Assembly: GCA_002238945.1 (NCBI GenBank)
Contig: MPNI01000005.1
Coordinates: 1 to 64,000, forward strand
Length of the DNA: 64,000 bases
Reading direction: 5' to 3'
From: Proteobacteria bacterium bin106
GTDB taxonomy: Bacteria > Bdellovibrionota_B > Oligoflexia > Oligoflexales > Bin106
Each line of letters starts with the position of its first letter. The stretch's first letter is position 1. Positions 2,930 to 45,430 of the stretch are shown here, one piece after another. The notes beneath the pieces are model-generated. The model was not told the origin of the DNA. It saw only the letters and a program-made list of their open reading frames with translations, and did not search any database. The position numbers and the translations under genes are program-made.

Positions 2930-3027
2930 TGTATTGTATTTTCCCTTTGTAAGTTTTCATAATTGACATGAGCTCACTGTGTTTTTCTAAGTAACAAAAT
3001 CTGATATGATATGCTTAAAATTTTATT

Positions 3028-3230
3028 TATTTTGAAAATCTTCTATGGATTTGGGGTGTACTTGATAGACTTTTCGCGTATCATCAAAACTCAAAAAATC
3101 ATCGTCTAAATCTGAATATTCATGGCTCCATTCATTAATCTCTGCTACCACCCCCTACTCCATCAATTGATACTGACCCAGTATGGCGCAAAACTCTTGA
3201 CGAGATAACAGCTGATATTTTATAAGTTGA
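3028..3230 (-). pseudogene. Decayed duplicate of the TerB_C C-terminus
   Basis: Strong nucleotide similarity to about 1790-2010; nonsense change in MEQGVVEE (ATGGAGTAG here versus ATGGAGCAG in the intact copy) plus loss of frame with 3220-4110. Confidence 0.8.
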
Positions 3231-4110
3231 CTGATAATATAACCAAGACTTTTAGATAGTCCTCCTCTGTTTGTCCCCTCTCCAGCAGCGACTGAGCATT
3301 TTCCTCTATTTCACTTTCTGAGCTACTGGTAACATCTAAATCTAACGTAATCATTGACATAACCTCTCTATCAGAGACAGGTTTTACCTGAGGTTTTTCT
3401 GATGCCTCTTGTGTTTGCATCTGCTCTTTTTGGACAGATTTAATATGACGCCCTTGTAAGCATCCACTAAATACCACTGCCGGATCTGATGGACATACCA
3501 CCTCACGGGTGTGTACATGCCCTAAAGCCCAATAGTCATAACCTTTTGTGCAAAGATCATCTAGAGAACAAGGAGCATAATTGGCATCCCCCTCACGACC
3601 ATTTAAACTGGTGTGTAATAGTCCCATATTAAAGTAGTCTCTTCTTGCTACAGGATACTTTAAAACAAGATTATCTGTTACTGCGCGCTCAGGATAGCTT
3701 TGACCATGCAAAGCTATTATATGCTCTTCTAGTAAGTGCTCTTCTAGTAAGAACGTTTCCGGTTTTTGATGCGAAAAGAGCTTCATGTTTTGCAGTGGTG
3801 TCAGTCTTTTGATCATGTGGTTTGCCGCATCATGATTTCCTGCTACCACATAAACCATGATTGTACCAAGACGCGCTATCTGTTTATGAAAAAATAAGCC
3901 AGTATTATAATCTTTCCAGTCATCATCGTATAAATCACCAGCCAAAACAATAAAATCTACTTTTGCTTTTAGAGCAAAATCAATAAGACTAACAAAGGCT
4001 TTTCGCGTTGCACTGCGAAGCTGATCACGCTTATCATCATCCAATGGTGATAAGCCTCGAAGAGAACCGTCAAAGTGGATATCAGCGGCATGGATACATT
4101 GAAACGTCAT
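3220..4110 (-). CDS. SbcD/Mre11-like metallophosphoesterase, C-terminus replaced by TerB-C-type linker
   Basis: HAADIHFDG, LAGDLYDDDW, AGNHDAAN, ALHGQSYPER, ALGHVHTREV phosphoesterase motifs; tail VQKEQMQTQEASEKP...MITLDLDVTSSSESEIEENAQSLLER matches the linker of the 1769-2929 protein. Confidence 0.75.
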   Translation of the reverse strand: MTFQCIHAADIHFDGSLRGLSPLDDDKRDQLRSATRKAFVSLIDFALKAKVDFIVLAGDLYDDDWKDYNTGLFFHKQIARLGTIMVYVVAGNHDAANHMIKRLTPLQNMKLFSHQKPETFLLEEHLLEEHIIALHGQSYPERAVTDNLVLKYPVARRDYFNMGLLHTSLNGREGDANYAPCSLDDLCTKGYDYWALGHVHTREVVCPSDPAVVFSGCLQGRHIKSVQKEQMQTQEASEKPQVKPVSDREVMSMITLDLDVTSSSESEIEENAQSLLERGQTEEDYLKVLVILSVNL

Positions 4111-4228
4111 GTTATCTTTTTATAATGGTATAGCAGCCTGCGCTCTTTTTAACTTCTCGCCATAAAGGCTTCTAGAATCAAGTACATTTTAAAGCTATTG
4201 TTTGATTGTGTTACATTGGTCCTACCTA

Positions 4229-4361
4229 ATGAAATAACCTGATAAGAATCATTCTGACATATGATGTTTTAGTATTTGCTTCATCATATCATCTATAGTA
4301 TGGATACAAAAGCTTTCCTTGAAAGTTAACATCAAGGATGTTTTCGTGTTGTAGGGTTGTA
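4229..4361. repeat. Direct repeat copy B of 731-862
   Basis: See copy A. Confidence 0.9.
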
Positions 4362-10966: not shown

Positions 10967-11881
10967 CTAAAAATGATAGCTCAGTGAGCTATATAAAGGT
11001 GAGATACGTAAACGTAGATAAGGTTGTACTCTCATGGAAGTGGTGCTTATGTGAGCCTTTTTTTGAGAAGATAATGATCCTTGAAAGCGTTCTGTGTAAG
11101 CATCCCATATCTTAGGTGCATAATGAGGAGCTAAATAGGTTTTCACTTCAGCACCAATCACTCCACTCATAAAGTATGGTAATGCTGCTTCTTTATCCCC
11201 TAGTTCAAAAGCTATAAGCAAAGCCAGTATGCCATTCACTCCTACTCGTATCATATGAGCTTTTAAGGACCGTCTTCCTTCTTGCTTTTGCTTGGCTTTC
11301 CATAAATAACTTTCCATGATCTCATCATCTCGATGAGTGACGTTTGACAAAGATCTATAATACCTAACTGCTTTCTGTGTGGGATGAGACAGTATGAACA
11401 TCACATGTTCATACAGAGAGTACATATCAAGTATAGTATCAAGTCCTGCTATGTATCGTTTTGTTGTCGTATCATCAACTGTTTCTGTGTCTGAAAATAG
11501 AGGACGACTTTCTATGACATAATAACTATTTTTTATCAAAGAAAACCCATGATAACTGCCAAAACCATAACTCCACAGATAATGATGCCATTGATAATCA
11601 CTGAGTTTTTGATAGATAAACTCAGCACGTTCACCAACCGCAACAGAGCTTTGAGTCTGCACAGAATTTGGCACTTGCTGCATGCTAGTAGCAAGTGCCA
11701 AAGAAGAACACAGTTGAAGCCCTCCAACTAGCATTCCTAGCTTAACTAGCTTAACTAGCTTAACTAGCTTAACTAGCTTAACTAGCTTAACTAGCTTAAC
11801 TAGCTTAACTAGCTTAACTAGCTTAACTAGCTTAACTAGCTTAACTAGCTTAACAAAAAACCATCTTTTAAAGGCATTCAT
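10967..11881 (-). CDS. Exported hypothetical protein with (KLV)n repeat leader
   Basis: MNAFKRWFF(VKL)n GMLVGGLQLCSSLALATS; probable start at the internal ATG 11881 (open frame to 11971). Confidence 0.6.
   Translation of the reverse strand: MNAFKRWFFVKLVKLVKLVKLVKLVKLVKLVKLVKLVKLVKLVKLVKLGMLVGGLQLCSSLALATSMQQVPNSVQTQSSVAVGERAEFIYQKLSDYQWHHYLWSYGFGSYHGFSLIKNSYYVIESRPLFSDTETVDDTTTKRYIAGLDTILDMYSLYEHVMFILSHPTQKAVRYYRSLSNVTHRDDEIMESYLWKAKQKQEGRRSLKAHMIRVGVNGILALLIAFELGDKEAALPYFMSGVIGAEVKTYLAPHYAPKIWDAYTERFQGSLSSQKKAHISTTSMRVQPYLRLRISPLYSSLSYHF
11737..11854. repeat. 9-bp tandem repeat (ctagcttaa), about 13 copies, in frame
   Basis: Uninterrupted cttaactag iterations read directly. Confidence 0.95.
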
Positions 11882-12429
11882 CACACAAAAAGACTTAACA
11901 CAATAATGGAAGCTAGCCAAGCTGTGACGGCTTGTATTCACATGGCTTGTATTCCAACAGCCTCTATCCATAAGCTCCTCGTTATGATGGTGGGTTCTAC
12001 TTGCATAGTTATGTGGTCTTTATTTCTATTTTTTTGTTATTTTGTTATTTTCTTAGGTTAGATAGTCAGCAGCTAAGAGATAAACTATTAGCTGCAACTG
12101 TTCATATATCTTAACTATTTTACAAGCTTACAGGTTATCTCAACTGAAATCTAGCACAAGCCTAAAGAGAAATTTATGGTAACAGGCATCATAGCAAGCC
12201 ATAGCAAGCCATAGCAAGGAAAGCCCATCTATGACTCTTGATGACTGTTTGGAGTAATTAAGCTATCATGACACATGTGACTGCAGCGTCATAAAGAACA
12301 TGATGAGTCGATACTATCCAAAAAAAGCAAAGAGAGTACGATAGAGATGTATATTTAGAAACTCATAGAAGAACATATCATGCATTAAAGAATATATTAC
12401 CATCCATCACACAACAACCACTACTCATA

Positions 12430-16186: not shown

Positions 16187-17857
16187 TCATGATATTTTAT
16201 AAGGTCTAGTTGAGTACTGTATGCCAAAAGTTTTATAGATTTTTTCTGCTTCTTTAGACAGTTCCCTCGCTATTCCATAAGCATCAGAAAACTTTTTTCT
16301 GCTATCACAAACAACATATGTTTCAACGTCTCTCAAAGTATCTAAGATTTTTTGAGGAGCATAAGAAATACCAACTTTCTTAAGTTCTATCGCCGTATAC
16401 TTAAGCAAGACATATGTTAAAAAACATATAAATATGTGAGCGTATATGCGCTCTGCTTTCCAGTGATAAATAGGATGCATGCTCAAAGTATGCTCATTGA
16501 TCATAAACTGCTTTTCTGTCTTGCATAGACGACGATAATTTTTAAATATAGCTTGTGGTTTCGCAGTTCTGTTTGTACAAAGACCATAGATACCATCCCA
16601 TTGATAATCTTCTGCTATCTTATTTCGATCAACAACATAAGATACGCCTTTTTTAGAAGAAACTTTTTTTACATAACGACCTATGTCTTTATACATCTCA
16701 ATACTGCTGGCTGCTATCGAATCTTCTTTACCAACAAATTTATTTAGCTTTTTTAAAATTTCTTCTCTTTTCATTCTGTCTCTTACGCAACGACTTTCAT
16801 TATATGATATGACAAACCTTCGATTCTTGTGACGCAATTCACAATATTGACTTTGTGAATATAACAGTATATCTTCATTATTAATTTTAGTTTGCATTTT
16901 TTCTTTAAAATCTAATATGTCTTTTTTAATCTTCACAGGAAGATTATTAAGAGTGATACGAACTATATACTCTGCTCTAGTACCATCTTTTTTTTCCTTA
17001 AGAGAATCTAAATAACTCAGATTTTTATCTAAAAACATACTCCTATCTGCTACCAGAGATATTTTTTTGATAGATTGTTGTTTTATATAGGGATCCATAA
17101 CCTCAGATAACGTTTTAGAATCAGCCATATTTTCTTGAAATACTTCAAAAGATAGTGGCATCCCGCTTTCATCTGACAAAATAGCCAGAACAATTTGAAC
17201 TTCTCCATTTTTTGCATCTTTTTCATCTTCAAAATCTTGAAGATTGTCTTCACGTACTGATTTAAAGTAGAGTGTGGTGACATCAAAAAGCAATAACTTG
17301 AGATGTTTTCTACCAGCTAAAAGAGTCTGAAAAATCTGCTTTTTTAAGTCTTCTTTACTATCTGAAACACGATCCATCATAAATAAAATTCTTCTCAAAG
17401 ATATTTCTTTATTCAAATACCTTTGAAGTTTCAATGAGCTCTCACTTTTACTACATGACTCATAAGCATGCATTAACACAACATACTTAAGTACTTCGTT
17501 AAGATTTGTTGTATTTCTCCCTTTTGTCAAAAGCTTTGAGAAATTCAATTTTTCATAAATATGTCCAAAGATGTCTTCAAAGCCTTTATTATATCTTGAT
17601 CCTCCCACAAGATCATAGATGTTGATATGATTCTCTGGAGATGGAGAAAGATTAGGAAGCGCAATCTTTCCGTTTTTGTAGTCTTCTATGATTCCCTTTC
17701 CAATTTTTTGAAATCGTTTGATCTCTTCAGGATCTTTTGACTGACCAATGGTTTTAACAGTACGATTAGTAGGTGTGCCGGTGTCTTTTTTTCGATATGC
17801 TACCACGAGTCGAACTACAGTGGCTCCACTTTTTAACTTAGGACATGACATAAACAT
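16187..17857 (-). mobile_element. IS1634-family (IS4-like DDE) transposase; terminal inverted repeats not resolved
   Basis: N-terminus VRLVVAYRKKDTGTPTNRTVKTIGQSKDPEEIKRF, LLLFDVTTLYF, VADRSMFLDKNL, C-terminal YHWKAERIYAHIFICFLTYVL typical of IS1634 transposases. Confidence 0.85.
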
Positions 17858-18269: not shown

Positions 18270-19820
18270 TTATCTGCAATCAAATATGTACAACTGATTA
18301 GCTTTTAAACAATCACTCATATTTTCTTGAAATTGAGGGTTTTTGTAGATATTTGCGTTAAAGATAGCTTCTTGTGGGTTATCTTTGAGATACTGGGAGG
18401 GATCAGTGACTAAGCCTTCTAGTATTCTCGTTCGACTCACTCTACTCATAAATTCACTTACACTGGAGGTCTTAAAAAAGAATAATATCCAATCATCATG
18501 CAATGCATTGATCATAGACAAAAGTCTTTTAACATCAGCAACATAGGCACTTCCCAGTGCTTCTATTTTAGATGTTATCACAGAATGCAAAGTAAGTTTC
18601 ATCCAAACAGGATCGGAGATGCTGCCCGTTTCAAAATTGCTAGAAGCGTACTTGCTGCCTAGGGAGTCTTTCCATTTTGCCGCAGAGTCACCTTTGAAGG
18701 GACTCGGGTCTTCAAGTAAAGCACGGTTGTATAGCTCTAAGCAATCAGAGAACTTGAGCTGGTTAAGCCCTGGCGAGGCACATGCTTCTTTTAAGATGCT
18801 TGGCAACTGTGCAGCAATATTTACAAGTAATGGTCGGGTATAGAGAGCATACCCGTCTTTAACAAGGTTGAGGCCTTGGAACTCTACAAGCGTTCCGTTT
18901 TTGATGAGTTTGAGAATATCAGCGAGGAGATAATACGAAGCATCGATGATATATTGATCTTCAAGGTTATGGTTTTGTTCTTCTATTGATAAAGATGAAC
19001 CCTTTTTTTGAAGAAGAGAACGAAAGAAATTGATTTTTTTATCACCCTGAAAATCTCCGGGAATATGAAGAGACTTTATAGCCTTTAGAATAACAGCATC
19101 TTTGAATCTTTGATAGTCTTCAGCTTTGATGCTGTATTTATTAAGCAAAGCTTCAAAAATCTCATCGTCCACGTTTTCAAAAAGTGGTGTTGTATCACTT
19201 TCTGTCAAAGTAGCATATGTTTCTCTTTGATCATCCGTACCCGTACTCACCACAGGAGGCGGTACAGGTTTTGGATCAGGTGATGATGATGAGCCTAGCA
19301 GATCCTCTCCGTTAGATGTAGCTAGATTGTTATATTCATTGTTGCCAGCTGAGCTTGATGAAAGCAAAACGCCTTCGCTGGCAGCAAATTTTTCTGCTAG
19401 ATAACCCACAACCACAGCTCCTCCAGCAAGAGAAAGGGCCCACTTTGTCAGTGCCGTTTTGGGTAACCAATGTAGATGTTTGCTCCACGAACCAGCAGCA
19501 CCAAGAAGAGCTGCTCCTGTAACCGGTAGGACAGCAGCTGCAGAATTATAAACCTCTGTGAAGTCCTGAGCTAAGAGCTGCTCATCTTCAAGAGTGAATG
19601 CTTCAGCAAAACAGGAATCACTTCCAGATTGTTGATCATCAGACAGCTCACTTGAAGTACACGAGCTTAACGTAAATGTTTGACCGGTGTCTCTTAGAAG
19701 ATAATAATTTTCTGGTGTGCTATTTTTGCTGGCATCACTTTCACTGGCAAATGCTTGCGAAGAGAATATACAAAGCCATAGTAGGGATAGTGCTGTAGCT
19801 ATGTGTTTTTGATGGTGCAT
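18270..19820 (-). CDS. Exported TM protein, family X paralog 1
   Basis: Signal peptide, ...HLHWLPKTALTKWALSLAGGAVVVGYLAEKFA... TM segment, PDPKPVPPPVV linker, helical C-terminus. Start by homology at M of MHHQKHIATALSL. Confidence 0.7.
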   Translation of the reverse strand: MHHQKHIATALSLLWLCIFSSQAFASESDASKNSTPENYYLLRDTGQTFTLSSCTSSELSDDQQSGSDSCFAEAFTLEDEQLLAQDFTEVYNSAAAVLPVTGAALLGAAGSWSKHLHWLPKTALTKWALSLAGGAVVVGYLAEKFAASEGVLLSSSSAGNNEYNNLATSNGEDLLGSSSSPDPKPVPPPVVSTGTDDQRETYATLTESDTTPLFENVDDEIFEALLNKYSIKAEDYQRFKDAVILKAIKSLHIPGDFQGDKKINFFRSLLQKKGSSLSIEEQNHNLEDQYIIDASYYLLADILKLIKNGTLVEFQGLNLVKDGYALYTRPLLVNIAAQLPSILKEACASPGLNQLKFSDCLELYNRALLEDPSPFKGDSAAKWKDSLGSKYASSNFETGSISDPVWMKLTLHSVITSKIEALGSAYVADVKRLLSMINALHDDWILFFFKTSSVSEFMSRVSRTRILEGLVTDPSQYLKDNPQEAIFNANIYKNPQFQENMSDCLKANQLYIFDCR

Positions 19821-20309
19821 TAAAGCAAGCTCCATAAAAAAATCTGTGATCATGAGACTCATAGACCAGACGTTATAATAACAAGCAGCGGTCATTATCG
19901 ATTACATATGATATGCAAACGATGATTAAATGGATAGTACACTACAATAAAAGTAAGTTCAATGCTAAAGAATATCTACGATTTGCTATAACATCAACAT
20001 GCATATGTTATTTCCCAGGCTTTTAAGACCACTCAAAGCTTCACTGGTACATGTCTATTATAATAGAAAAATATAGCAGAATCAAAAGTCAACAGAGCTA
20101 CGCATCCTTTATGTACCGTATATAACTTATATAACAGGGATCTAGCAAGGAATCTAAAAATTTGTGGTATGTTTTTGTTGCCATACTTCAGTTAAATAAG
20201 TAAAAATAGATTACCATCGTATCACCACTAAAACTGCTAGCACTATGACTCATAGAAGCATAGCTATATAGTCTGAAAAGATTACACGTACAGTTTAAAA
20301 TCTCAAAAA

Positions 20310-20349
20310 GTGACACAGTGATACAGTGATACAGTGATACAGTGATACA
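20310..20349. repeat. 8-bp intergenic tandem repeat (cagtgata)n
   Basis: acagtgatacagtgatacagtgatacagtgatacat. Confidence 0.9.
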
Positions 20350-20368
20350 TAAGTGACGATATAAAAAA

Positions 20369-20400
20369 TGCGAGGTTTTGATAGCTATCAAAACCTCGCA
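20369..20400 (-). terminator. 32-bp perfect palindrome plus T-run, intrinsic terminator of 20503-22038
   Basis: tgcgaggttttgatagctatcaaaacctcgca; minus strand continues as TTTTTTAT. Confidence 0.85.
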
Positions 20401-20502
20401 TAACTCAAAAAACAGCTAATCAAAAAACAGCTAATCAAAAAAACAACTAGGGCCAGTTCAAACATCACAAGAGACGCCCAAAAGTTAGAAAATCATCAGT
20501 GC

Positions 20503-22038
20503 TTAATAGGTCATGTCAAATGCGTGCCAATCAACAGCTTTTAAAGAATCACCCATATTTTTTTGAAAGTCAGGGTTTTTATAGATATTCACATTAAAAA
20601 GAGCTTCTCGTGGGTGATCTTTGAGATACTGTGAAGGGTCAATAGACAGGCTTTGTAGTACTCTTGTGCGACTATATCTAGTAAATGGATCTTCTCTAGA
20701 AATCTCAAAAAAGAACCACATCATATGGTCATGAAATTCAATGACAGCAGGCAGAAAGCTTTTGACATCAGCAGCATAGGCACTTTCCAATTCTTCTATT
20801 CTAGATGTTATCACAGAATGCAAAGTGAGTTTCATCCAAACAGGATCCGAGCTGCTGCCCGTTTTGAAGTCGCTAAGAGCGTATTTGCCATCTAGAAAAT
20901 TTCCTGGTTCTACTGCAGAGTTAGTATCAAAGGGACTCGAATCTTCAAGTAAGCCATGACTATATAGCTCTAAACAGTCAGAGAACTCAAGATGACTAAG
21001 CCCTGGCGAAGCACATGCCTCTTTTAAGATATTTGGCATCTGTGCAGCAACATTTACAAGTAATGGTCGCAAATAGAGAGCATATCCGTCTTCAACAAGG
21101 CTAAGATCTTGGAATTGTTCAAGTGCTCCGTTTTTTATGAGTTTGAGGACATCAGCAAGGAGATAATACGAAGCATCGAATATATACCGATTTTCAATAA
21201 AGTACTGTTGGCGCTCTTTTGATAGATATCCCAATTTTTGAGGAGCTTCATAATAAAAATTTCTTTTTTTCACACTTTGCAAAGTTCCGGGAACATGAAG
21301 CTTACCTAAAGCCTTTAAGGCAACAGCATCTTTGAACCTTTGATAGTCTTCAGCTTTAATGTTACGCTCATTGAGTAAAGCTTGAAAAGCTTCATCGTCC
21401 ATGCTTTCAAACAGTGGTGTTCTACCAGTTTGTGTGTAACTAGTTTGTCTTTTTGTTTTTTTACTTGCATCCCAACGTAGCACAGGAGGTGGTACAGGTG
21501 TTGGATCAGGTGATGATGAGCCTAGCAGATCCTCTTCGTTAGATGTAGCTAGATTGCTATATTCATTGTTGCCAGCTGAGCTTGATGAAAGAAAAACGCC
21601 TTCGCTGGCAGCAAATTTTTCTGCTAGATAACCCACAACCACAGCTCCTCCAGCAAGAGAAAGGGCCCACTTTGTCAGTGCCGTTTTGGGTAACCAATGT
21701 AGATGTTTGCTCCACGAACCAGCAAGAAGAGCTGCTCCTGTAACCGGTAGGACAGCTGCAGAACTATAAACCTCTGTGAAGTCCTGAGCTAAGAGCTGCT
21801 CATCTTCAAGAGTGAATGCTTCAGCAAAACAGAAATCACTTCCAGCTTGTTGATCATCAGACAGCTCACTTGAAGTACACGAGCTTAACGTAAATGTTTG
21901 ACCGGTGTCTCTTAGAAGATAATAATTTTCTGGTGTACTATTTTTGCTGGCATCACCTTCACTGGCAAATGCTTGCGAAGAGAATATACAAAGCCATAGT
22001 AGGGATAATGCTGTAGCTACGTGTTTTTGGCGGTACAT
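20503..22038 (-). CDS. Exported TM protein, family X paralog 2
   Basis: Nearly identical N-terminal third to 18270-19820; diverged C-terminus. Confidence 0.75.
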   Translation of the reverse strand: MYRQKHVATALSLLWLCIFSSQAFASEGDASKNSTPENYYLLRDTGQTFTLSSCTSSELSDDQQAGSDFCFAEAFTLEDEQLLAQDFTEVYSSAAVLPVTGAALLAGSWSKHLHWLPKTALTKWALSLAGGAVVVGYLAEKFAASEGVFLSSSSAGNNEYSNLATSNEEDLLGSSSPDPTPVPPPVLRWDASKKTKRQTSYTQTGRTPLFESMDDEAFQALLNERNIKAEDYQRFKDAVALKALGKLHVPGTLQSVKKRNFYYEAPQKLGYLSKERQQYFIENRYIFDASYYLLADVLKLIKNGALEQFQDLSLVEDGYALYLRPLLVNVAAQMPNILKEACASPGLSHLEFSDCLELYSHGLLEDSSPFDTNSAVEPGNFLDGKYALSDFKTGSSSDPVWMKLTLHSVITSRIEELESAYAADVKSFLPAVIEFHDHMMWFFFEISREDPFTRYSRTRVLQSLSIDPSQYLKDHPREALFNVNIYKNPDFQKNMGDSLKAVDWHAFDMTY

Positions 22039-22181
22039 AAAAGCAAACTCCTTGAAAAAAAATCAATGATGATGAGACTTATGAACTAGACTGAAAAAAA
22101 TAGATAGCGGTCATTATTGGATTACAGACTATATGCAAACGCTCGTTAAACTACTACCACGTAACAAAAGTAAGCTCAATA

Positions 22182-23714
22182 CTAAAAATATCTATTATAA
22201 AGATCAAGAATAATCTGGCCTTTTTCTTGAAACAAAGGGTCGGTGTAGATACTTGGATTGAAAAGAACGTATTGTGGGTGGTCTTTGAGATACTGTGAGG
22301 GTTCAGTCACCAAACTTTCTAGTATTCTTGTTAGACTCACCCTACTGAGCTGATCATCATAAGGGAGCATAAAAAAGTCCCACATCATGTTGTGATATAC
22401 ACTGATACTCTCTAATTGGTCCTTAACATAAGTGATGTAGTTTGTTTCAAGTTTTTCTATCCTGGAAGTAATCTCATCAGACAGATGTGCTTTCACCTTC
22501 AATGGCTTTGGAATAGAATGACCTTCGTCTATTGTCAAAAACTTAAAAGCGTATATGTTACGCAAGAATTTTTCACCTTCAACCATAGAGATATCACCCG
22601 AAGGACTCGGATCTTCAAGTAAAGTAAGGTTATAGGTTTCTAAATAATGAGATAATCCGATTTTCTTAAAATCCAAAGAAGAATCATATATTTCGTTTAA
22701 GATTTCAGGCATTTGCACAACAACTTCATCGAGTAATGGCCGCGTATAGAGAGCATATCCGTCTTTAACAAGGCTGAGGCCCTGAAACTGCCTAAGTGTT
22801 CCGTTTTTTATGAGTTTGAGGACATCAGCGAGGAGGACATAGGAAGAATTGAAGATATAGCGCTTTTCATAAGCTTCCATAAGCTGATGCTCTGATAGAT
22901 CTGAACCCTCTCTTTGAGGACGTTCATAAAAGTTATGTCTTTTGTTATCGCCATGCCTCATACCTGGAACATGAAGACGTTTTTCGGCATATGAGCTCAC
23001 AGCTCTTTTGATAAGTTGGTAGTCTTCAGCTGTGATGTTGCGCTCATTAAGCAAAGCTTCAAAAGCCTCATCGTTCATGCTTTCCCACAATGGTGTTGTA
23101 TCACTTTCTGTCAAAGTAGCATGTGTTTCTCTTTGACCATCTGTATCCTTACTCACCACAGGAGGTGGTAGAGGTTTGGGATCAGGCGATGTTGAGCTTA
23201 GCTGCTCTTCTTTGCCAGATGTAGCCAGACTTTCATGTTCATTGTTGCTAGCTGAGCTTGATAAAAGCAGAGCGTCTTTGCTCACAGCAAATTTTTCTGC
23301 TAGATAACCCACAACCACAGCTCCTCCAGCAAGAGAAAGGGCCCACTTTGTCAGTGCCGTTTTGGGTAACCAATGTAGATGTTTGCTCCACGATCCACCA
23401 AGAAGAGCAGCTCCTGTAACAGGTAGGATAGCTGTAGAGCTATAAGTTTCTGTGAAGTTCTGAACTGAGAGTTGTATATCTTCAGGGATGAAGGTTTCAG
23501 CAAAACAGGAATCACTTCTAGCTTCTAGCTTGTAAGATAGTTCACTTTCAGCACAAGAGCTTAACGTAAATGCTCCACTGGTATTTTTTAGAAGATAGTA
23601 ATTTTCTGATGTGCTATTTTTGCTGGCATCGCTTTCACTGGCAAGTGCTACCGAGGAGAACATACAAAGCCATAGTAAGGATAGTGCTGCAGCTATGTGT
23701 TTTGGGTAGTGCAT
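22182..23714 (-). CDS. Exported TM protein, family X paralog 3
   Basis: Same architecture; most diverged except for the invariant SWSKHLHWLPKTALTKWALSLAGGAVVVGYLAEKFA tract. Confidence 0.75.
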   Translation of the reverse strand: MHYPKHIAAALSLLWLCMFSSVALASESDASKNSTSENYYLLKNTSGAFTLSSCAESELSYKLEARSDSCFAETFIPEDIQLSVQNFTETYSSTAILPVTGAALLGGSWSKHLHWLPKTALTKWALSLAGGAVVVGYLAEKFAVSKDALLLSSSASNNEHESLATSGKEEQLSSTSPDPKPLPPPVVSKDTDGQRETHATLTESDTTPLWESMNDEAFEALLNERNITAEDYQLIKRAVSSYAEKRLHVPGMRHGDNKRHNFYERPQREGSDLSEHQLMEAYEKRYIFNSSYVLLADVLKLIKNGTLRQFQGLSLVKDGYALYTRPLLDEVVVQMPEILNEIYDSSLDFKKIGLSHYLETYNLTLLEDPSPSGDISMVEGEKFLRNIYAFKFLTIDEGHSIPKPLKVKAHLSDEITSRIEKLETNYITYVKDQLESISVYHNMMWDFFMLPYDDQLSRVSLTRILESLVTEPSQYLKDHPQYVLFNPSIYTDPLFQEKGQIILDLYNRYF

Positions 23715-25405: not shown

Positions 25406-26332
25406 ATGATTAGATTTTTCCAAGTCTCACCTAAAGTAGTCCTGTGTTATGTGTTAAGTGTATTTGTTTTAAGTGGTTGTGGGTCTTCTGATTCCACGAA
25501 TAACAATTCAAAAACTGATACTGGTATTACTGATAATGAAGATACATCTGGATATGTTCGTTTATCCAAAGATAAGGCAACAGAAAAAGCTGATAATACA
25601 AAGTCTAAATCTAAACCTAGTGATAAAACCGTCGCTTCAAAGAAAACGGATACAACGACAGATTCAGCTAAGAAAACAGATACAACCAAGGCAACAGATA
25701 CAGAGGATTCTGAAGACTCTGAAAAATCTGAAGATTCAACAAAAACAACAGATGCGAGTAAAGGTAAAGCAGAGCCAAGTGTTACTGCAAAAAAAACAGA
25801 CAGTGGATCTGGTACAGGAAAAGTCACACCTAAGAAGGAGACAGCTCAGAAAAAAACCACTACCGCCACATCAACTGAGACAAAAACAGAAACTGTTGCA
25901 GTTGAAAACACTGAGTTTCAATGTAGTCAAAATAATGCAAAAGGCCTTCTTGATCAATATCAATACAGTGTTTCTGTTGATGGTGTTATCGAACTTTATT
26001 TATATAATATAGCCATAAAACGCTATGATAAAGAGGGATACGTAGAGTTTGTAGAACTAAGACGTAGTGAGTTCTTTTTAACAAGATGGTTAGATCCAGA
26101 TAGATCAACTGTTCGCGAAAAAGATAAAATCTATACAAGAGACGAACGAAACTTTAATCTTGAGCTATCATCTTTAAGTAATGATGAACTGGTTTCTTGT
26201 TTGATGCAGAATCCTGAAGGAAGTCATAATCTTTTTGTAGAAAGAAGAGACACTCCTCTATTTGATGCTACTTACACGACTAGAGGTAATCGAGTGTTTA
26301 GACCATTAGATTTTCTTAAACTAGATAAGTGA
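25406..26332 (+). CDS. Thr/Lys/Ser-rich lipoprotein, intact copy 1 of a tandem array
   Basis: FVLSGCGSSDS lipobox; low-complexity TKSKSKPSDKTVASKKTDT linker; C-terminal LSSLSNDELVSCLMQNPEGSHNLFVERRDTPLF. Confidence 0.8.
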   Translation: MIRFFQVSPKVVLCYVLSVFVLSGCGSSDSTNNNSKTDTGITDNEDTSGYVRLSKDKATEKADNTKSKSKPSDKTVASKKTDTTTDSAKKTDTTKATDTEDSEDSEKSEDSTKTTDASKGKAEPSVTAKKTDSGSGTGKVTPKKETAQKKTTTATSTETKTETVAVENTEFQCSQNNAKGLLDQYQYSVSVDGVIELYLYNIAIKRYDKEGYVEFVELRRSEFFLTRWLDPDRSTVREKDKIYTRDERNFNLELSSLSNDELVSCLMQNPEGSHNLFVERRDTPLFDATYTTRGNRVFRPLDFLKLDK

Positions 26333-26366
26333 CATAATTTTATACCAAATTTTTGAAGAATAATAA

Positions 26367-27460
26367 ATGATGACACTTTTTCAGGTTTCACCTAAAGTCG
26401 TGTTATTTTACGTGTTGAGTGTATTTGTTTTGAGTGGTTGTGGGTCTTCTGATTCCACGAATAACAATTCAAAAACTGATACTGGTATTACTGATAATGA
26501 AGATACATCTGGATATGTTCGTTTATCCAGAAACAAAGCAACAGAAAAATCTGATGAAACAAAATCTAAATCTAAACCTAGTGATAAAACCGTCGCTTCA
26601 AAGAAAACAGATACGGCCAAAACAACAGATATGGGCATAGATAATACAGAGCCAAGTGTTATTGCAAAGAGAAAAGCCACAACAGCTGAAACGAACACGG
26701 AAACTATTACAGTTAAAGGCACTAACTCCTCCCGCCGCCAGCCTGGGACTGTAAAAGATTTAGCTCTGATGTGGTGTGTTGCAGCTGAAGAGGAAGACCC
26801 TGACATCCACGACGACCAACGTCAGGAGAAAGATTCCCTCCACCGGCACGACTGCGTTCACCACCAAGATATTCGGGGATTAAACCTGATGGTATTCCAG
26901 CAATTTCACTGTGGTCAAAATAAAGGAAAAGGCCTTCTTGATGAATATGCATACAGTGTTTCTGCTGACGGGGTCATCGAACTGAATTTATACAATATAG
27001 CCATAAAGCGCTATGACAATGAGGGCTACATAGAGCTTGTAAAGCTAAAACCTAGTAAGTTCTTTTTAACGAGATGGGCAATCCAGAGAGATCCGCTGTT
27101 CGCGTAAGAGATAGAATCTACACAAAACATATACGAAATTTTAATGTTGAACTATCAACTTTAAGTGATGATGAATTGGTCTCTTGTTTGATGAAGAATC
27201 CTGAAGGTAGTTATAATCTTTTTGTAGAAAGAAAAGAAACTCCTCTATTTGGCGAAAGTAATACCACTAATAGTAGTGAAGTGTTTAGACCAAAGGATTT
27301 TCTTAAATCAAATGAAGACATTGACTACCTCACCCTCAGCGAGCAGAAGATTAAAAAAAGTATCAAAACTTACTGTGATCAAGGTATCCAACACAGCTCC
27401 GTTTCTTTTCCTTCTGACGGCAATCCACATATAGTGGTACGATGCAATACCGAACCGTAA
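26367..27460 (+). pseudogene. Lipoprotein array copy 2, frameshifted near 27078
   Basis: Frame 26367-27107 continues in 27074-27460 relative to copy 1 (gcaatccaga versus ttagatccaga, one base missing). Carries an approximately 177-bp foreign-looking insert. Confidence 0.8.
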
Positions 27461-29904: not shown

Positions 29905-31938
29905 TTAATTAGTTGGACAGACATTACCTGCTTTTGCATCTAATCCACCAACAGTTCCTTGACGATTAGGAGTCGTTTGAACCTGGTTTGTAGTTGTTTG
30001 AGTGTAAGGTATATTAATAGATTTTGTTCCACCAATTTGCTCACCATCTTTTGTCATATCAGTAGAATAGACTTTTCCATCTTGATCTACCTGAACAGTA
30101 CTATGATATGATGGCACTGAAATGGCTGGCCTGACATATGTCCAGCCGCCAAAAGATTGTTGAGGACTCCTAGCTGGTTGCCTACTTACAGGCTGTGTTC
30201 TCGCTGGCGGTCTCCCCTCAGGCTGTGTTCTCGCTGGCGGTCTCCCCTCAGGTTGTGTTCTCGCTGGAGGTCTCCCCTCAGGTTGTGTTCTCGCTGGCGG
30301 TCTCTCCTCAGGCTGTGTTCTCACTGGTGGTCTCTCCTCAGGCTGTGTTCTCGCTGGCGGTCTCTCCTCAGGCTGTGTTCTCGCTGGCGGTCTCTCCTCA
30401 GGCTGTGTTCTCGCTGGCGGTCTCTCCTCAGGCTGTGTTCTCGCTGGTGGATTTTCTTCAGGCTGCTGTGTATCTGTTGGCAGCTGAGTATCAGATTGTG
30501 TGTCTGTTGGTGTTGATGATTCACTGTCAGATGTAGTGGAAAGATTATCATGGATGTGCACAATAGATGGCCAACTATCGAATGGTTGAAGAGCATTCAT
30601 ATGAACAGAGCTTAGAATAGCTATAGGTTGATTATGTAGCATTAAAATACTACCATCATAAAGGCTAGAGACATTAGGCTTGTTGCCATCTTCAGCAGCT
30701 TTCAGAGGATTTCGATCATAAACAACAGCTAATCCTGCTTTGGCTGCAAGGAAATAGCCAATGGGTGCTTGCAGATGTGCCATAGCAAATTTATTATCTA
30801 ATGCATTATTTTTATTCTGTACCATAGACAACACTTCATAGCCATGATTTTCACGACTTTCTGCCTGTGATGAACTATTAGAAAACACATAAATAAAGTC
30901 ATTAGGCTTGATTTTTTGATTATCATCAGTTGGAATAGGAACAAGTGGAGTATTGTTCCTATCCCATAATTCAGTAAATTTTGTAGCGTAATCTTTTAAA
31001 CTTGGCCAATCAGGAGGATTAGTTTCATACAAATGAGGAGCATTTTGTCCCGGATTTGCTGATGCACGAAAATCATTAAGTATAGATAAATCAAAGCTTT
31101 GAAATTTTTGATCGAGATGAGCTTCCCAATTTTGAAATGATTGATCTGAATCTACATAGAAAGCTTTACCACGTTTGTTGAGAAGTTCAAATCTAGTTGC
31201 ATCAAAAGTAACTTGTCCTCTAATCATAGTCAAATCAAATGGATTATAACAATGTAAATGTCTATTATAATTATCTTTTAAATTACTAAATAATTCTTTA
31301 ACACGTGGAAAATCAGCGTTATCTTTACTAAAATTTACTCCTTGAGCGCAAGCCGTTTTATAGAATAATTCATTAAAATCCGTATTATTCTGAGAGTGAA
31401 GTACACTGTGAATAACATAATGATCAGTAAAGTCTTCAATGTATCTAAGAGCTGCACCTAAGTTATTTGTTTTCATTTCGGTTCGTAAGTTAGACAATTC
31501 TGTAAGATCTTGAGAAACAAAATTTGTAGGTAAATAACCTGCTTTTTGAAGAGATGGAGTAGCTGCACTATTGTCAGAGTAGAGATAAAAATGCAGACTA
31601 ATTGTGTCGCCATTAAGAGGTTTTAAACATTTTCGTGAAGTATATACTTTTACTGTTAATGGATCACTCTCTTGTGTGTTGATAAGACTTTCAGGACTAA
31701 TCAATGCTTGGCATAAAAATTTTTCATTATTACTTCGACGAATTCCTTCTATCAAACCACCATAAAGTAATTTTTTAGACAATTGAGGCGAGACAGAATC
31801 AGATGAAAGAAATACTAAACCGTTCAAATTTCCCCTCAAACTAGTAGTTGTCGAGCATGTGCTACTAGGAGGCTTATTGCATCCTATGCATATAAGAAAC
31901 AAGAAAATATAAGCTCTAAGTAATTTCATTAATATCAA
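29905..31938 (-). CDS. Lipoprotein with (PEERPPARTQ)n tandem repeats
   Basis: LFLICIGCNKPP lipobox; about nine 30-bp repeats at 30190-30460. Confidence 0.75.
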   Translation of the reverse strand: MILMKLLRAYIFLFLICIGCNKPPSSTCSTTTSLRGNLNGLVFLSSDSVSPQLSKKLLYGGLIEGIRRSNNEKFLCQALISPESLINTQESDPLTVKVYTSRKCLKPLNGDTISLHFYLYSDNSAATPSLQKAGYLPTNFVSQDLTELSNLRTEMKTNNLGAALRYIEDFTDHYVIHSVLHSQNNTDFNELFYKTACAQGVNFSKDNADFPRVKELFSNLKDNYNRHLHCYNPFDLTMIRGQVTFDATRFELLNKRGKAFYVDSDQSFQNWEAHLDQKFQSFDLSILNDFRASANPGQNAPHLYETNPPDWPSLKDYATKFTELWDRNNTPLVPIPTDDNQKIKPNDFIYVFSNSSSQAESRENHGYEVLSMVQNKNNALDNKFAMAHLQAPIGYFLAAKAGLAVVYDRNPLKAAEDGNKPNVSSLYDGSILMLHNQPIAILSSVHMNALQPFDSWPSIVHIHDNLSTTSDSESSTPTDTQSDTQLPTDTQQPEENPPARTQPEERPPARTQPEERPPARTQPEERPPARTQPEERPPVRTQPEERPPARTQPEGRPPARTQPEGRPPARTQPEGRPPARTQPVSRQPARSPQQSFGGWTYVRPAISVPSYHSTVQVDQDGKVYSTDMTKDGEQIGGTKSINIPYTQTTTNQVQTTPNRQGTVGGLDAKAGNVCPTN

Positions 31939-39155: not shown

Positions 39156-40304
39156 TTACTTTTGAGGTAACCCCAAAAGATTCAACATAGCAAAATGCTT
39201 GTTAATGATATCTCTTATATCAGAAGCAAGGTAAGGCAAAATATAAACAAAACTCACGTTGCTGCATATGAGTATTCTATTTTTAAGAAGGGGTATATGT
39301 CTTTCGAATACATTCAGTGGTTTGATTTCACCATGTCTTTTAATACCCATTCCAACGCTGCTATGCACAACCAAGCCACCTATTATAATCCCCATAACTT
39401 GAATGTGACCATCTACATCGGTATAAAGTGGTGCACCAGAATCTCCACTGCAGATCATCGATGATTTTATCTCACTATCTACATGACTCACTGTCTTTGA
39501 AGGTGTTTTAGTATCTTCTGTTTGTTTCGTAAGCCTCGGAACCGTAATGCCTACATCTTTGTGGTCTTGCTTTTCAAAAAATCTTTTTATACGTTTTGGA
39601 AAACGTGAAAAATAATTATTCTTTAGTGATGGATGAAGCTTATACCACCAAGGCAGTGAAATGATGGTGTTACGAAATGTATTATTCTTTTCAAGTTGGT
39701 CTAGATGTTGTAACGAATATAATGTTAAAGCTGCTTGACGAAAATAATTATTTTCGTCACCATAAATGTCTTCACTGCCTTCTTCTTTGTGATCAATCTT
39801 AGGAATTTTTTTACTATAAAGTTCTTCTGAACCTCCACGTCCTTCTGCCCATACATCTAGGGCTTTATCAGGATAAGTAGTAGCCATAGGTAAAGGTTTT
39901 GGAAAGTCTGATTCAGCCATTTCAGAGTCAGTTAATCCCTCATTAAATATCAGGACAGCAACATCACTACTACCCACCTGATAGACTTTTTCAACATCAA
40001 ACGCTTTTATTTGATCATTTCTAAAAGCTGTGGGTACATCCAAAAGAATTTCATAATGATAAACTTCTGATGACACACAATGATAAGCTGTCAGTACAAC
40101 ACCTCTTTGGATATATACTCCATCACATTCAGCTTGAGCATCATCATTTGTTATTAATATTTTCACTGTAGCAGTTGTTTGAAGATAACCAGAAGCCTGA
40201 GGCAAGCTGTCAGGGCCGATAACATTCAACTGTGAAGTGCTTTCTATGCCACAACTCACCATAGTAAGACTGATAAACACAATGATCAAAGGTACACATC
40301 TCAC
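39156..40304 (-). CDS. Trypsin-like serine protease lipoprotein, paralog 1
   Basis: LTMVSCG lipobox; VLTAYHCVSS (His), SSDVAVLIF (Asp), ICSGDSGAPLY (Ser). Confidence 0.85.
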   Translation of the reverse strand: MRCVPLIIVFISLTMVSCGIESTSQLNVIGPDSLPQASGYLQTTATVKILITNDDAQAECDGVYIQRGVVLTAYHCVSSEVYHYEILLDVPTAFRNDQIKAFDVEKVYQVGSSDVAVLIFNEGLTDSEMAESDFPKPLPMATTYPDKALDVWAEGRGGSEELYSKKIPKIDHKEEGSEDIYGDENNYFRQAALTLYSLQHLDQLEKNNTFRNTIISLPWWYKLHPSLKNNYFSRFPKRIKRFFEKQDHKDVGITVPRLTKQTEDTKTPSKTVSHVDSEIKSSMICSGDSGAPLYTDVDGHIQVMGIIIGGLVVHSSVGMGIKRHGEIKPLNVFERHIPLLKNRILICSNVSFVYILPYLASDIRDIINKHFAMLNLLGLPQK

Positions 40305-40517
40305 TTCCAGTTCCTCTCCATTTAAAGACTAACAGTACTATGATCACATAGTGGACTTGATGAATGATTCAAATATCTATGACTAGATACTGTCTTATAA
40401 GCAATATATATGCCAAAGTGATAACATTGGCTATGACCTCCATAACCTTAATAAGATCTTCAAACTCATCTCTTTTTACAGCAGGCAAGTCATAACTCTG
40501 AACACTAAGCACTATGC

Positions 40518-41654
40518 TCAGCGCGTAGCATCTTGAAAATGATCATCAATAATATGTTTTATATCAGAAGCAAGGTAAGGCAAAATATGAGGAACACTCA
40601 CGTTGCTGCACATGAGCATCCTCTTCATAAGAAAGGAATTGGGCATATGTCTTTCAAATACATTCAATGGTTTGATTTCACCATGTCTTCTTATACCCAT
40701 CCCAACGCTGTTATGCACAACCAAGCCACCTATTATAATCCCCATAACTTGGATGTGACCCCCCACATCGGCATAAAGCGGTGAACCAGAATCTCCGCTA
40801 CAAATCATCGATGATTTTATCTCACTATCTACATGACTCACAGTCTCTGAAGTTGCTTTAGTATCTTCTGTCTGTTTCGTAAGCCTCGGAACCGTAATGC
40901 CTACATCTTTAAGACCTTGCTTTTTCAACTTCCTTTTTACACGTTTTGGAAGACGTGAAAAAAAACCATTCTTTAGTGATGGATGAAGTTTATACCACCA
41001 AGGCAGTGAGATGATTACGTTACGAAATGTATCATTTTTCTCAAGATCGTCTAAATGTTGTAGCGGATATAATGTTAAAGGCGCTTGACGAAAACAATTA
41101 TTTTCATCACAATAAAATTCTTTAATGCCTTCTTTTTTGTGATCAACCTTAGGGATTCTCTTACTATAAAGTTCTTCTGAACCTCCACGTCCTTCTACCC
41201 ATACATCTAGAGGTTTATCAGGATAAGTAGTAGCTATAGGTAAAGGTTTTGGAAAGTTTGATTCAGCCATTTCAGAGTCAGTTAATCCCTCATTAAATAT
41301 CAGGACAGCAACATCACTACTACCCACCTGATAGACTTTTTCAATATCAAACGCTTTTTCTTCAACATTTCCAGAAGTTGTAGGTACATCAAAAATAATT
41401 GCATAATGATGATCTTTTAATAACGTACAATGATAAGCTGTCAGTACAACACCTCTTTGGATATATACTCCGTCACATTCAGGATTAGAATCACCATTTT
41501 TTATTGATATTTTCACTGTAGCAGTTTTTTGAAGATAACCAGAAGCCTGAGGCAAGCTGTCAGGGCCGATAATATTCAACTGTGAAGTGCTTTTTGTGCC
41601 ACAACTCACCATAATAAGACTGATAAACACGATGGTTAAAGATACACATCTCAC
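40518..41654 (-). CDS. Trypsin-like serine protease lipoprotein, paralog 2
   Basis: LIMVSCG; VLTAYHCTLL; SSDVAVLIF; ICSGDSGSPLY. Confidence 0.85.
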   Translation of the reverse strand: MRCVSLTIVFISLIMVSCGTKSTSQLNIIGPDSLPQASGYLQKTATVKISIKNGDSNPECDGVYIQRGVVLTAYHCTLLKDHHYAIIFDVPTTSGNVEEKAFDIEKVYQVGSSDVAVLIFNEGLTDSEMAESNFPKPLPIATTYPDKPLDVWVEGRGGSEELYSKRIPKVDHKKEGIKEFYCDENNCFRQAPLTLYPLQHLDDLEKNDTFRNVIISLPWWYKLHPSLKNGFFSRLPKRVKRKLKKQGLKDVGITVPRLTKQTEDTKATSETVSHVDSEIKSSMICSGDSGSPLYADVGGHIQVMGIIIGGLVVHNSVGMGIRRHGEIKPLNVFERHMPNSFLMKRMLMCSNVSVPHILPYLASDIKHIIDDHFQDATR

Positions 41655-41868
41655 TTCCAGTTCCTCTCCATTTAAAGACTAACAGTACTATGGTCACATA
41701 GTGGACTTGATGAATGATTCAAATCCTCTTGACTAGATACTGTCTGATAAGCAATATATATGCCAAAGTGATAGCATTGGCTATGACCTCCATAACCTTA
41801 ATAAGATCTTCAAACCCAGCTCTTTTTACAGCAAGGCAAGTAACAATTCTGAACACTAAGCACCATGC

Positions 41869-42966
41869 TCAGCGCTTAGCATCTTGAAAATGATCATCAA
41901 TAATGTATCTGATCTCAGAAGCAAAACCAGGTAATATTTGAGCAATACTCAAATTACTGCAGATGAATAACTTGTTAAGAAAAACGATTCTTTCTAAGAT
42001 ATTCAGTTGCTTAATTTCACCATTTTTTATAACAATACTGCTAGGAACTATAAGAGTATCCGTTACAATTCCTACTACCTGGATGTGACCACCCACAACT
42101 GTATAAAGCGGTGCACCAGAGTCTCCATTGCAAATCATAGATGATGTGATATAATCTTCGCCTACAGCATCTGTAGCTGTTGAGGTTATGATACTATCTT
42201 GTTTTTGTGCTGTGTTGCGATGTTGACTCAATCTTGGCACAGTCATACCTAAATCTTTACGGCCTTTTTCATGGATAAACATATGCAAATGATGAGAAAG
42301 ACGTGAAAAATAATGGTTTTTTAGCAATGAATTAAGTCTATACGGCCAAGGCAGCGGTGAGGTGATTGTGTTACGAAATGCCTCATTACTCCCCAGATGC
42401 TCTATATATTGCTTAGGATATAATGTTAAAGATGCTTGACGAAAATGCTCATTATCATCATAGACATGTTTTATTCCTCCAAATCCTTCTGCCCATACAT
42501 CTAAAGGCTTATCAGGATAAGTCATTACCACAGAAGCAGGTTTTGGAAAGTCTGATTTAGTTATTTCAAAATCTGTTAATCCTTCATTAAAAATCAAAAC
42601 AGCAAGATCGCTGTTACTCACTTGATAGATTTTTTCAATATCAAAGACTGTTTTTTTATAATTTTTCCAAGCAATAGGTAGGTCAAAAAAAACTTTAACA
42701 TTACGATTATTCTTTGAAGATACACAATGATAAGCCGTCAGTATAACACCTTTTTCAATATATACCCCACCACAAAGATTTTTTTCAAATTTTTTCTCAG
42801 AAATCTCTTCTTCTGCTATCACTTTCACCGTGGCAGTGATCTGAAGATCACTCAAGACCTGAGGTACACTGTCAGGGCCGATAATATTCAATTGAGAAAT
42901 CATTTCTCTACCACAGCTCCATAACACCATACTTATAAACATAATGACTAAAGATACATATCTCAC
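41869..42966 (-). CDS. Trypsin-like serine protease lipoprotein, paralog 3
   Basis: MVLWSCG; ILTAYHCVSS; NSDLAVLIF; ICNGDSGAPLY. Confidence 0.85.
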   Translation of the reverse strand: MRYVSLVIMFISMVLWSCGREMISQLNIIGPDSVPQVLSDLQITATVKVIAEEEISEKKFEKNLCGGVYIEKGVILTAYHCVSSKNNRNVKVFFDLPIAWKNYKKTVFDIEKIYQVSNSDLAVLIFNEGLTDFEITKSDFPKPASVVMTYPDKPLDVWAEGFGGIKHVYDDNEHFRQASLTLYPKQYIEHLGSNEAFRNTITSPLPWPYRLNSLLKNHYFSRLSHHLHMFIHEKGRKDLGMTVPRLSQHRNTAQKQDSIITSTATDAVGEDYITSSMICNGDSGAPLYTVVGGHIQVVGIVTDTLIVPSSIVIKNGEIKQLNILERIVFLNKLFICSNLSIAQILPGFASEIRYIIDDHFQDAKR

Positions 42967-43105
42967 TTCCTATTCCTTTTTATGTAAAAATCCTGCGCTA
43001 AAATCATACATTTTACCATCATAGTCTTTGTTTAGCTCACAAGACTGTGATCACTCTGCTAGCAGAAGTAAATATGTAAAAACGCTAAAAGTGATAATAA
43101 ATACA

Positions 43106-44209
43106 TCACCGAAACGTTTCAAAATGCGTGTAGATAATGCGTCTTATCTCAGAGGCAAAATCAGCTAAGATATGAACCACACCCACGTGACTGCATGTGA
43201 GCTTTATCTTTCGAAAAAAGCTCAAATTTCTTTCTAAAATATTAAGTGATTTAATCTCATTATTTTCTAAACCAATACTGTTAGGAACCATAAGAATACT
43301 AGTTATAATGCCCACTACCTGAACGTGATTATCTACAATCGTATAAAGAGGTGCACCAGAATCTCCACTGCAAATCATCGATGATTTAACATAAGATTCT
43401 GGGTTATCTACAGCATCAACTGCTGTAGAAGCTGTGCTGCTGTTTTGTGTCATATTGCGATATATACTCGGCCTTGGAACAGTGACTCCTATAGCGTTGC
43501 GGTTTTGAATACTTTTTAAAGCAAGAGAGGCATAATAATTGCTAACCTGTCGATACATCTTTTCCCACCAAGACAAAGATATGCTGGCTTCAGGATATAC
43601 ATAACTCTTTTTTACAAGATCTAAATGTTGCGGTGCATACAACGTTAAAGGTGCTTGACGAATATGTTTTATATTATCACTATCATAATATTCATGTGTG
43701 CCGCCTAATCCTTCTGCCCATACATCTAGGGGTTTATCGGGATAACGATCTATCATGGCAAGAGGTTCTGGAAAACCTGGTATAAGCATAGATAAAGACG
43801 ATAACCATCCTTCTTTAAAAATCAGCACGGCAATATCACTGTTATCAACACGATAGACCTTATCAACATCAAAAGCTATTTTTTCATAAACTTCTGAAAA
43901 AGGTGAAACTATATCCAATACAATCTTAAAACGAGACTCCTCTGAGCTCACACAATGATAAGCTGTTAAAACAACTCCTTTTTTAATATAGACTCCACCA
44001 CAATCATGTTGAAATGTTCTCTCAGAAATATCATTTTCTACTACCACAGTCACTGTGGAAGTGGTCTGAAGTTCACCAAAAACCGGAGGTACACTGTCAG
44101 GACCAATTATATGCAATTGTGAACTATCTTCTCTACCACAACTCCATACAATCATCATCAAACTTAAAAATACCATGGCTCTATATACATATTTCATGTG
44201 ATTCTCCAC
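43106..44209 (-). CDS. Trypsin-like serine protease lipoprotein, paralog 4
   Basis: MIVWSCG; VLTAYHCVSS; NSDIAVLIF; ICSGDSGAPLY. Confidence 0.85.
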   Translation of the reverse strand: MENHMKYVYRAMVFLSLMMIVWSCGREDSSQLHIIGPDSVPPVFGELQTTSTVTVVVENDISERTFQHDCGGVYIKKGVVLTAYHCVSSEESRFKIVLDIVSPFSEVYEKIAFDVDKVYRVDNSDIAVLIFKEGWLSSLSMLIPGFPEPLAMIDRYPDKPLDVWAEGLGGTHEYYDSDNIKHIRQAPLTLYAPQHLDLVKKSYVYPEASISLSWWEKMYRQVSNYYASLALKSIQNRNAIGVTVPRPSIYRNMTQNSSTASTAVDAVDNPESYVKSSMICSGDSGAPLYTIVDNHVQVVGIITSILMVPNSIGLENNEIKSLNILERNLSFFRKIKLTCSHVGVVHILADFASEIRRIIYTHFETFR

Positions 44210-44299: not shown

Positions 44300-45430
44300 T
44301 TACTGATGATCATCAGAATTTTTAGCTGGATATCCCACTATCACATCATCTGACTCAGCTGGCTCATACCAGCTGTCTTGGACATTTAAAAAAAGTAAGT
44401 CTAAAATATAGTAAGGATTCAAAGAGTCAAAAGACTCTTGAAGTATTTGATAGAGTTCCTCACTAGCTGTGCGGATCGTTTCTTGATTTAAGGAAAAAAA
44501 ATAAGAAAGATCACCAACAATCTTATCATCAACTGGAGGATAAGAATACGAGGAATAACGAAAGTAACGGATATTGTATAGCCAAAGCAATGTTGCATAG
44601 AGATCATTACCACCAAAATGGTCCTGTATGGTCTCTTTAAGACGCCTTTGGTCTGCGTCTAAATCATCTAAACTTTTTTGATACAAATCAGCTACGTGGC
44701 TACGATGCTTTAAAAGCTCACTACGGCCTAACAGTTCACTTAAAGAACTCTCACCATCCCAAAATAAGCTATCCCATTGAAATATATGATCCAATAACTC
44801 TTGGTCTTCATGAGGATGATTTTCTGCAACAAACATAACCTTCCACTGGGGAGGTGTATTCGGTGGAGGTAAAGGATGATGAGATGGAACAGAATGTTGA
44901 TAAGTCTTTAAATCATAATCAGAGTTTTCTGTTTCTGTATGCACCTGTGATAGATCTAAGTTAGATCCTACAGAGGTAGCAAACATAGACCCTCTCTCTG
45001 TTTTCTTAGCAAACCATAACACACCGCCTACCACAGCCAAACTATAGATGACCTCAGATCTCAAGAATTTGGGTAACGAGTGAAAACCCCGCAAAATCTT
45101 ATGCACCTGAGTCAATGGCATAGTTAAAGACATAGCTAAAGAAGATGCCATCACAGCAGAAGCACTTTGTTCTAAAAGCCGTTCCTTATTCCCTTCCTTG
45201 TGCTCCAAATCCACCCATGCAGATGATGGCAACATGGGGGAATGTTCGTTAGCGTAACTCAACGATATATGTACCAGCATAAACATAAACCATACCACAA
45301 CCACTATAGCATATTTGAAAATGAATGCCACATAGCTCGGCTGTATGGTAGTATGGATGTCTTTGTTATCTTTACTAGTATTTTTATCACGTACTTTAAT
45401 GATCATCTGATGTTTTTCCTTATCTATCAT
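44300..45430 (-). CDS. Exported TM protein, possible distant family X member
   Basis: Signal region, SLPKFLRSEVIYSLAVVGGVLWFAKKTE (cf. WLPKTALTKWALSLAGGAVVVGYLAEKF), LPPPNTPP linker, helical C-terminus. Confidence 0.5.
   Translation of the reverse strand: MIDKEKHQMIIKVRDKNTSKDNKDIHTTIQPSYVAFIFKYAIVVVVWFMFMLVHISLSYANEHSPMLPSSAWVDLEHKEGNKERLLEQSASAVMASSLAMSLTMPLTQVHKILRGFHSLPKFLRSEVIYSLAVVGGVLWFAKKTERGSMFATSVGSNLDLSQVHTETENSDYDLKTYQHSVPSHHPLPPPNTPPQWKVMFVAENHPHEDQELLDHIFQWDSLFWDGESSLSELLGRSELLKHRSHVADLYQKSLDDLDADQRRLKETIQDHFGGNDLYATLLWLYNIRYFRYSSYSYPPVDDKIVGDLSYFFSLNQETIRTASEELYQILQESFDSLNPYYILDLLFLNVQDSWYEPAESDDVIVGYPAKNSDDHQ

Follow-up and report, generated by a model that had tools for sequence, protein, structure and literature searches.

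Three tandem genes in the window (the whole stretch of 64,000 nucleotides analysed here, from contig MPNI01000005.1 of Proteobacteria bacterium bin106) carry one and the same piece of DNA within coding sequences that have otherwise diverged. Is this identity produced by recombination between the copies, or is it held in place by a function of the nucleotides themselves? The original prediction had raised both possibilities for a 108-bp tract identical in three tandem paralogs, and the tract is present as described: the 108-mer has exactly three exact matches in the window (19383-19490, 21610-21717 and 23286-23393; chance expectation, none), all in minus-strand open reading frames, and it encodes the peptide that had been given for it. 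The exact block common to all three copies is 109 bp long, and A1 and A2 alone share 132 bp. We conclude that the tract was very probably left by short-patch gene conversion, a recent non-reciprocal recombination between the three tandem paralogs. The features concerned are the following:

18270..19820, minus strand: paralog A1, 516 aa counted from the ATG at 19820
20503..22038, minus strand: paralog A2, 511 aa; architecture as in A1, N half nearly identical to that of A1
22182..23714, minus strand: paralog A3, 510 aa; N half with A1/A2, C half with the copy on contig C136
19382..19490, minus strand: 109-bp identical tract in A1; in-frame product SWSKHLHWLPKTALTKWALSLAGGAVVVGYLAEKFA
21609..21717, minus strand: 109-bp identical tract in A2, within the 132-bp exact match to A1
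23285..23393, minus strand: 109-bp identical tract in A3, both flanks diverged

The reading frame of A1 (18270-19895) is open up to 19895, and alignment with the paralogs favours the ATG at 19820. Its product is predicted to consist of a signal peptide, a Cys-containing N domain, a hydrophobic pair, a Pro-rich linker and a helical C region. The tract falls on the best conserved protein stretch of the family (mean pairwise identity 0.77 versus 0.52 for the median window), a predicted transmembrane helix. Directly beyond the array lies an IS1634-family transposase gene (16187-17857, minus strand).

We compared the copies at synonymous sites, scoring only codons with the same residue in the compared copies and excluding Met and Trp. 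Within the tract, 33 of 33 degenerate codons are identical in the trio versus 75 of 94 in the rest of the N-terminal part (Fisher test, P-value = 0.003) and 144 of 216 in all of the sequence outside the tract (P-value = 6e-6). The longest identical run in the trio spans 42 codons (codon-order permutation, P-value = 1e-4), and a Sawyer-type test on all polymorphic sites found 47-site runs across the tract (P-value = 5e-5). Taken by pairs, the synonymous runs extend over 42 codons for A2/A3 (P-value = 2e-4), 80 codons for A1/A2 (P-value = 2e-4) and 34 codons for A1/A3 (P-value = 0.006, moderate when set alone against the immediate flanks); these tests treat codons as exchangeable, and their P-values are uncorrected for the many pairs. 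Synonymous divergence is thus lost locally between diverged flanks (run tests, P-values of 1e-4 to 0.006), and dS along the genes is non-uniform, with a pS of 0 in the tract versus 0.19-0.49 outside. A3 and A1 have a pS of 0.00 across 27 synonymous sites in the tract; copy 3 has, as was claimed for it, diverged on both sides, although unevenly (pS versus A1 of 0.28 upstream, 0.19 immediately downstream and 0.49 over the C-terminal part). Since the N halves of A1 and A2 are nearly identical (pS ∼0.07), the patch is conspicuous only in comparisons with copy 3.

A genome-wide search for the tract, which had been proposed as a check, recovered seven further members, each with a diverged version of it. 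The family therefore numbers ten in the genome as a whole (148 contigs totalling 2.59 Mb, 82% complete): three in the array and the others on contigs C136, C40, C122, C127, C146 (two in tandem) and C43. Eight of the ten copies are complete from start codon to stop; the first C146 copy is truncated by the contig end, and the C43 copy has a frameshift and an internal TAG. By prediction, the intact members have in common a signal peptide, a short Cys-containing domain, two hydrophobic stretches and a Pro-rich linker, and their C-terminal part is mostly helical (low confidence); structure prediction from nine sequences was poor (mean pLDDT 38). Searches of Pfam, NCBIfam and PADLOC gave no match above the cut-off, and PDB sequences gave none; no member was found in the sole other genome of the genus, in 43 others of the order or in 58 others of the phylum, and phage and plasmid collections and viral contigs gave no relative. 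The gene family is undescribed in the resources searched. The N-domain profile gave only weak matches outside the ten, the best of them (E = 0.004, G000:C110:10628-10795) within a 1616-codon open frame. An orphan gene at 44300-45430 (minus strand) has a similar layout, with a signal-like N-terminus, a hydrophobic pair and a Pro-rich linker, but no detectable sequence similarity to the family. A wider superfamily that would take in such similarly laid-out neighbours (44300-45430 and the ORF before the C122 copy) received no support, as none of them rose above noise with the N-domain profile.

If the tract carried a nucleotide-level function (a recombination site, an RNA element or a regulatory site), purifying selection could have kept its synonymous sites alike. 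The exact agreement of three copies at 27 synonymous sites is what such a function would yield, and the tract is also the best conserved protein segment. However, synonymous variation of the seven other members is about as high in the tract as in the rest of their genes. Between the C136 copy and the trio, 11 of ∼27 synonymous sites in the tract differ (pS 0.40 versus 0.40-0.53 elsewhere), the C40 copy has a pS of 0.22 in the tract versus 0.10-0.57 elsewhere, and the C127, C146, C43 and C122 copies have tract values of 0.40-0.48. In control trios without two array members, codon identity inside the tract is about equal to that outside (16/26 versus 88/158, 12/19 versus 74/145 and 11/21 versus 80/156). 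Three-way synonymous identity is limited to the array, and synonymous conservation across unlinked copies, the mark of a conserved DNA or RNA element, was not found. The RNA fold of the tract is unremarkable (z = –0.48), Rfam gave no match, and the tract contains neither an inverted repeat nor an excess of motifs (enriched 9-mer or Chi-like). The presence of GCTGGAGG in the tract had raised the possibility of a Chi-like hotspot, but this octamer is not notable: it occurs five times in the window on both strands, and three of these are the tract itself. A nucleotide-level function is largely refuted by the diverged copies, and we regard it as extremely improbable. Because the non-tandem members are synonymously diverged in the tract, the identity within the array goes beyond general constraint.

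The exchange reaches well beyond the tract, which is part of a larger mosaic. A1 and A2 have a pS of ∼0.07 or less from the signal peptide to the linker and of 0.39 beyond it, while their upstream non-coding DNA is just 74% identical. The first C146 copy and the C43 copy behave likewise, with a pS of 0 to 0.05 before the linker and 0.45 after it; their synonymous codons are identical to approximately column 300, and the C146/C43 pair has a synonymous run of 130 codons (P-value = 2e-4, uncorrected). These are converted stretches longer than the tract. A 35-codon synonymous run also joins A3 to the unlinked C40 copy (P-value = 2e-4, uncorrected), and exact matches of 100-121 bp occur between other pairs too. 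In the tree of the N halves A1, A2 and A3 are united (ultrafast bootstrap 92) and C43 goes with C127/C146 (100), whereas in that of the C halves A3 goes with C136 (97) and C43 with A1 (93), A2 joining the latter two at only 58. AU tests agree: {A1,A2,A3} is accepted for the N half and rejected for the C half (P-value = 5e-9), {C127,C146x2,C43} is likewise accepted for the N half and rejected for the C half (P-value = 0.002), and {A1,A2,C43} is accepted for the C half and rejected for the N half (P-value = 1e-44). The two halves have conflicting histories, and the C43 copy appears from its sequence to be a C127/C146-type N half joined to an A1-type C half. The pS of A3, 0.28 in the N half versus 0.49 in the C half, suggests layers of exchange that differ in age.

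These trees also bear on an account without any conversion, in which a recent triplication was followed by diversifying selection that drove apart all but the strongly constrained transmembrane segment. Such a history would suit the position of the tract in the most conserved protein region and the fast evolution of the C-terminal part (pN 0.20-0.34). However, constraint on the protein leaves synonymous sites free to change, and those of copy 3 have diverged in the flanks (pS 0.19-0.28). Moreover, the C half of A3 is nearer to the unlinked C136 copy than to A1 or A2 and monophyly of the trio is rejected there, so simple triplication fails; we consider this account very unlikely. Gene conversion, in turn, is supported by the non-uniform dS, the significant synonymous-only runs and the segment-wise discordance of the N- and C-half trees. 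Of the two readings in the original prediction it is the one that stands; nucleotide-level function does not, given the synonymous variation of the non-tandem tracts and the lack of structure, Rfam or motif signal in the tract.

False identity could also arise if a short-read assembler had collapsed similar copies or joined them into chimeras. We worked with a draft assembly, in which contigs C43 and C146 open with the same exact 127 bases, as expected if a graph with k = 127 broke at the family; the assembler's k was therefore probably 127. However, the block shared by the trio is shorter than this (109 bp) and so would not arise from k-mer ambiguity alone. All three copies are also placed on a single 102-kb contig, each between flanks of its own; graph errors exchange flanks and do not render diverged copies identical, and the matches of 100-121 bp recur in other pairs. 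An assembly artefact is thus very unlikely. The 132-bp match of A1 and A2 exceeds the apparent k, which makes their join dependent on the assembler's repeat resolution, and as exact repeats longer than k would be lost or misjoined, recent longer conversions are probably under-represented.

Overall, we suggest that the three copies share an identical stretch because DNA was copied between them. Short-patch conversion would have homogenised the tandem copies at the tract in a probably recent event, the likely agent being general homologous recombination of the host. Pairing may be easiest in the conserved segment, where the copies are most similar, and this likeness plausibly set the position of the tract, which falls within the best conserved stretch of the protein. 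The patch would be one of several exchanges and would overlie an N half itself exchanged earlier; across the ten members a conserved N half and a variable, predicted helical C half have very probably entered new combinations, the changeover lying in or close to the Pro-rich linker.

Two other groups of tandem genes in the window contain synonymous runs. A pair of lipoprotein-like genes (25406-27460, plus strand) has near-identical 5' parts (292 bp, 86%); the second gene comprises two ORFs (26367-27107 and 27074-27460) and may be frameshifted, and 25406-26332 and 26367-27107 share a 32-codon synonymous run (P-value = 0.005). Four tandem paralogous genes for trypsin-like proteases (39156-44209, minus strand; protein identity ∼49-78%) include one that was tested and matched Pfam Trypsin (39156-40304, E = 1.7e-10). 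The two nearest of the four share a 60-codon synonymous run (P-value = 0.02), and the other protease pairs have none. These runs hint that patchy homogenisation may be general in this genome. Repeats of other kinds are also present. A 138-bp direct repeat (725-862 and 4224-4361, 97% identity, 3.5 kb apart) flanks two genes with a common 300-bp stretch (1750-2049 and 2968-3267, 78% similar). Judged by its translation, 3220-4110 (minus strand) resembles the phosphoesterase part of an SbcD/Mre11-type nuclease and its tail resembles part of the neighbour 1769-2929; it is perhaps a truncated or fused recombination gene. A near-perfect 9-bp repeat array at 11726-11851 encodes KLV repeats near the N-terminus of a predicted gene (10967-11971, minus strand), and 30-bp repeats at 30114-30503 encode (RTQPEERPPA)n in a secreted-looking protein (29905-31938, minus strand).

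The ten genes could, though this is unlikely, be a repertoire of surface or host-facing proteins: conversion would keep a constant anchor half alike (signal peptide, Cys domain and transmembrane helix, all predicted), C-terminal helical domains would be shuffled among the array and the dispersed copies, and an uncultivated lineage would thereby have a system of diversification. Should the variability of the C-terminal part be adaptive, the family would be a candidate for studies of host or prey interaction. The case illustrates that a functional-looking exact repeat can be separated from conversion through unlinked paralogs in the same genome, and it records a re-assortment of domains in an orphan family of putative exported proteins, found in a single genome of a phylum that is small and poorly sampled (59 species genomes).

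In antigenic variation of the pilE/pilS or vlsE type, one expression locus is fed by silent, promoterless partial copies. We considered such a cassette system and set it aside, the copies here being complete genes in eight of ten cases. Bacterial tandem paralogs are known to undergo gene conversion, as in PE_PGRS17 and PE_PGRS18 of Mycobacterium tuberculosis, likewise lineage-restricted tandem paralogs with a multi-SNP block made common by conversion (PMC1762029); the proteins are unrelated, and the event was recognised there from strain polymorphism and here from the paralogs of one genome. Exchange of C-terminal parts by homologous recombination is documented at the 3' end of meningococcal tpsA, where a conserved N-terminal part is likewise combined with alternative C-terminal parts through recombination among homologous copies (PMC3848433). 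However, TpsA is a two-partner secretion exoprotein, and its locus has shorter tpsC cassettes and intervening ORFs, one of which confers immunity (PMC3848433), whereas the present family consists almost wholly of full-length genes, and we identified neither a secretion partner nor an immunity gene for it. Interlocus gene conversion and concerted evolution (reviewed in PMC3924818; GENECONV logic) leave the same copy-and-paste patches between paralogs with a local drop in dS. The mechanism is ordinary and well known, and the array is an instance of interlocus gene conversion without difference in principle.
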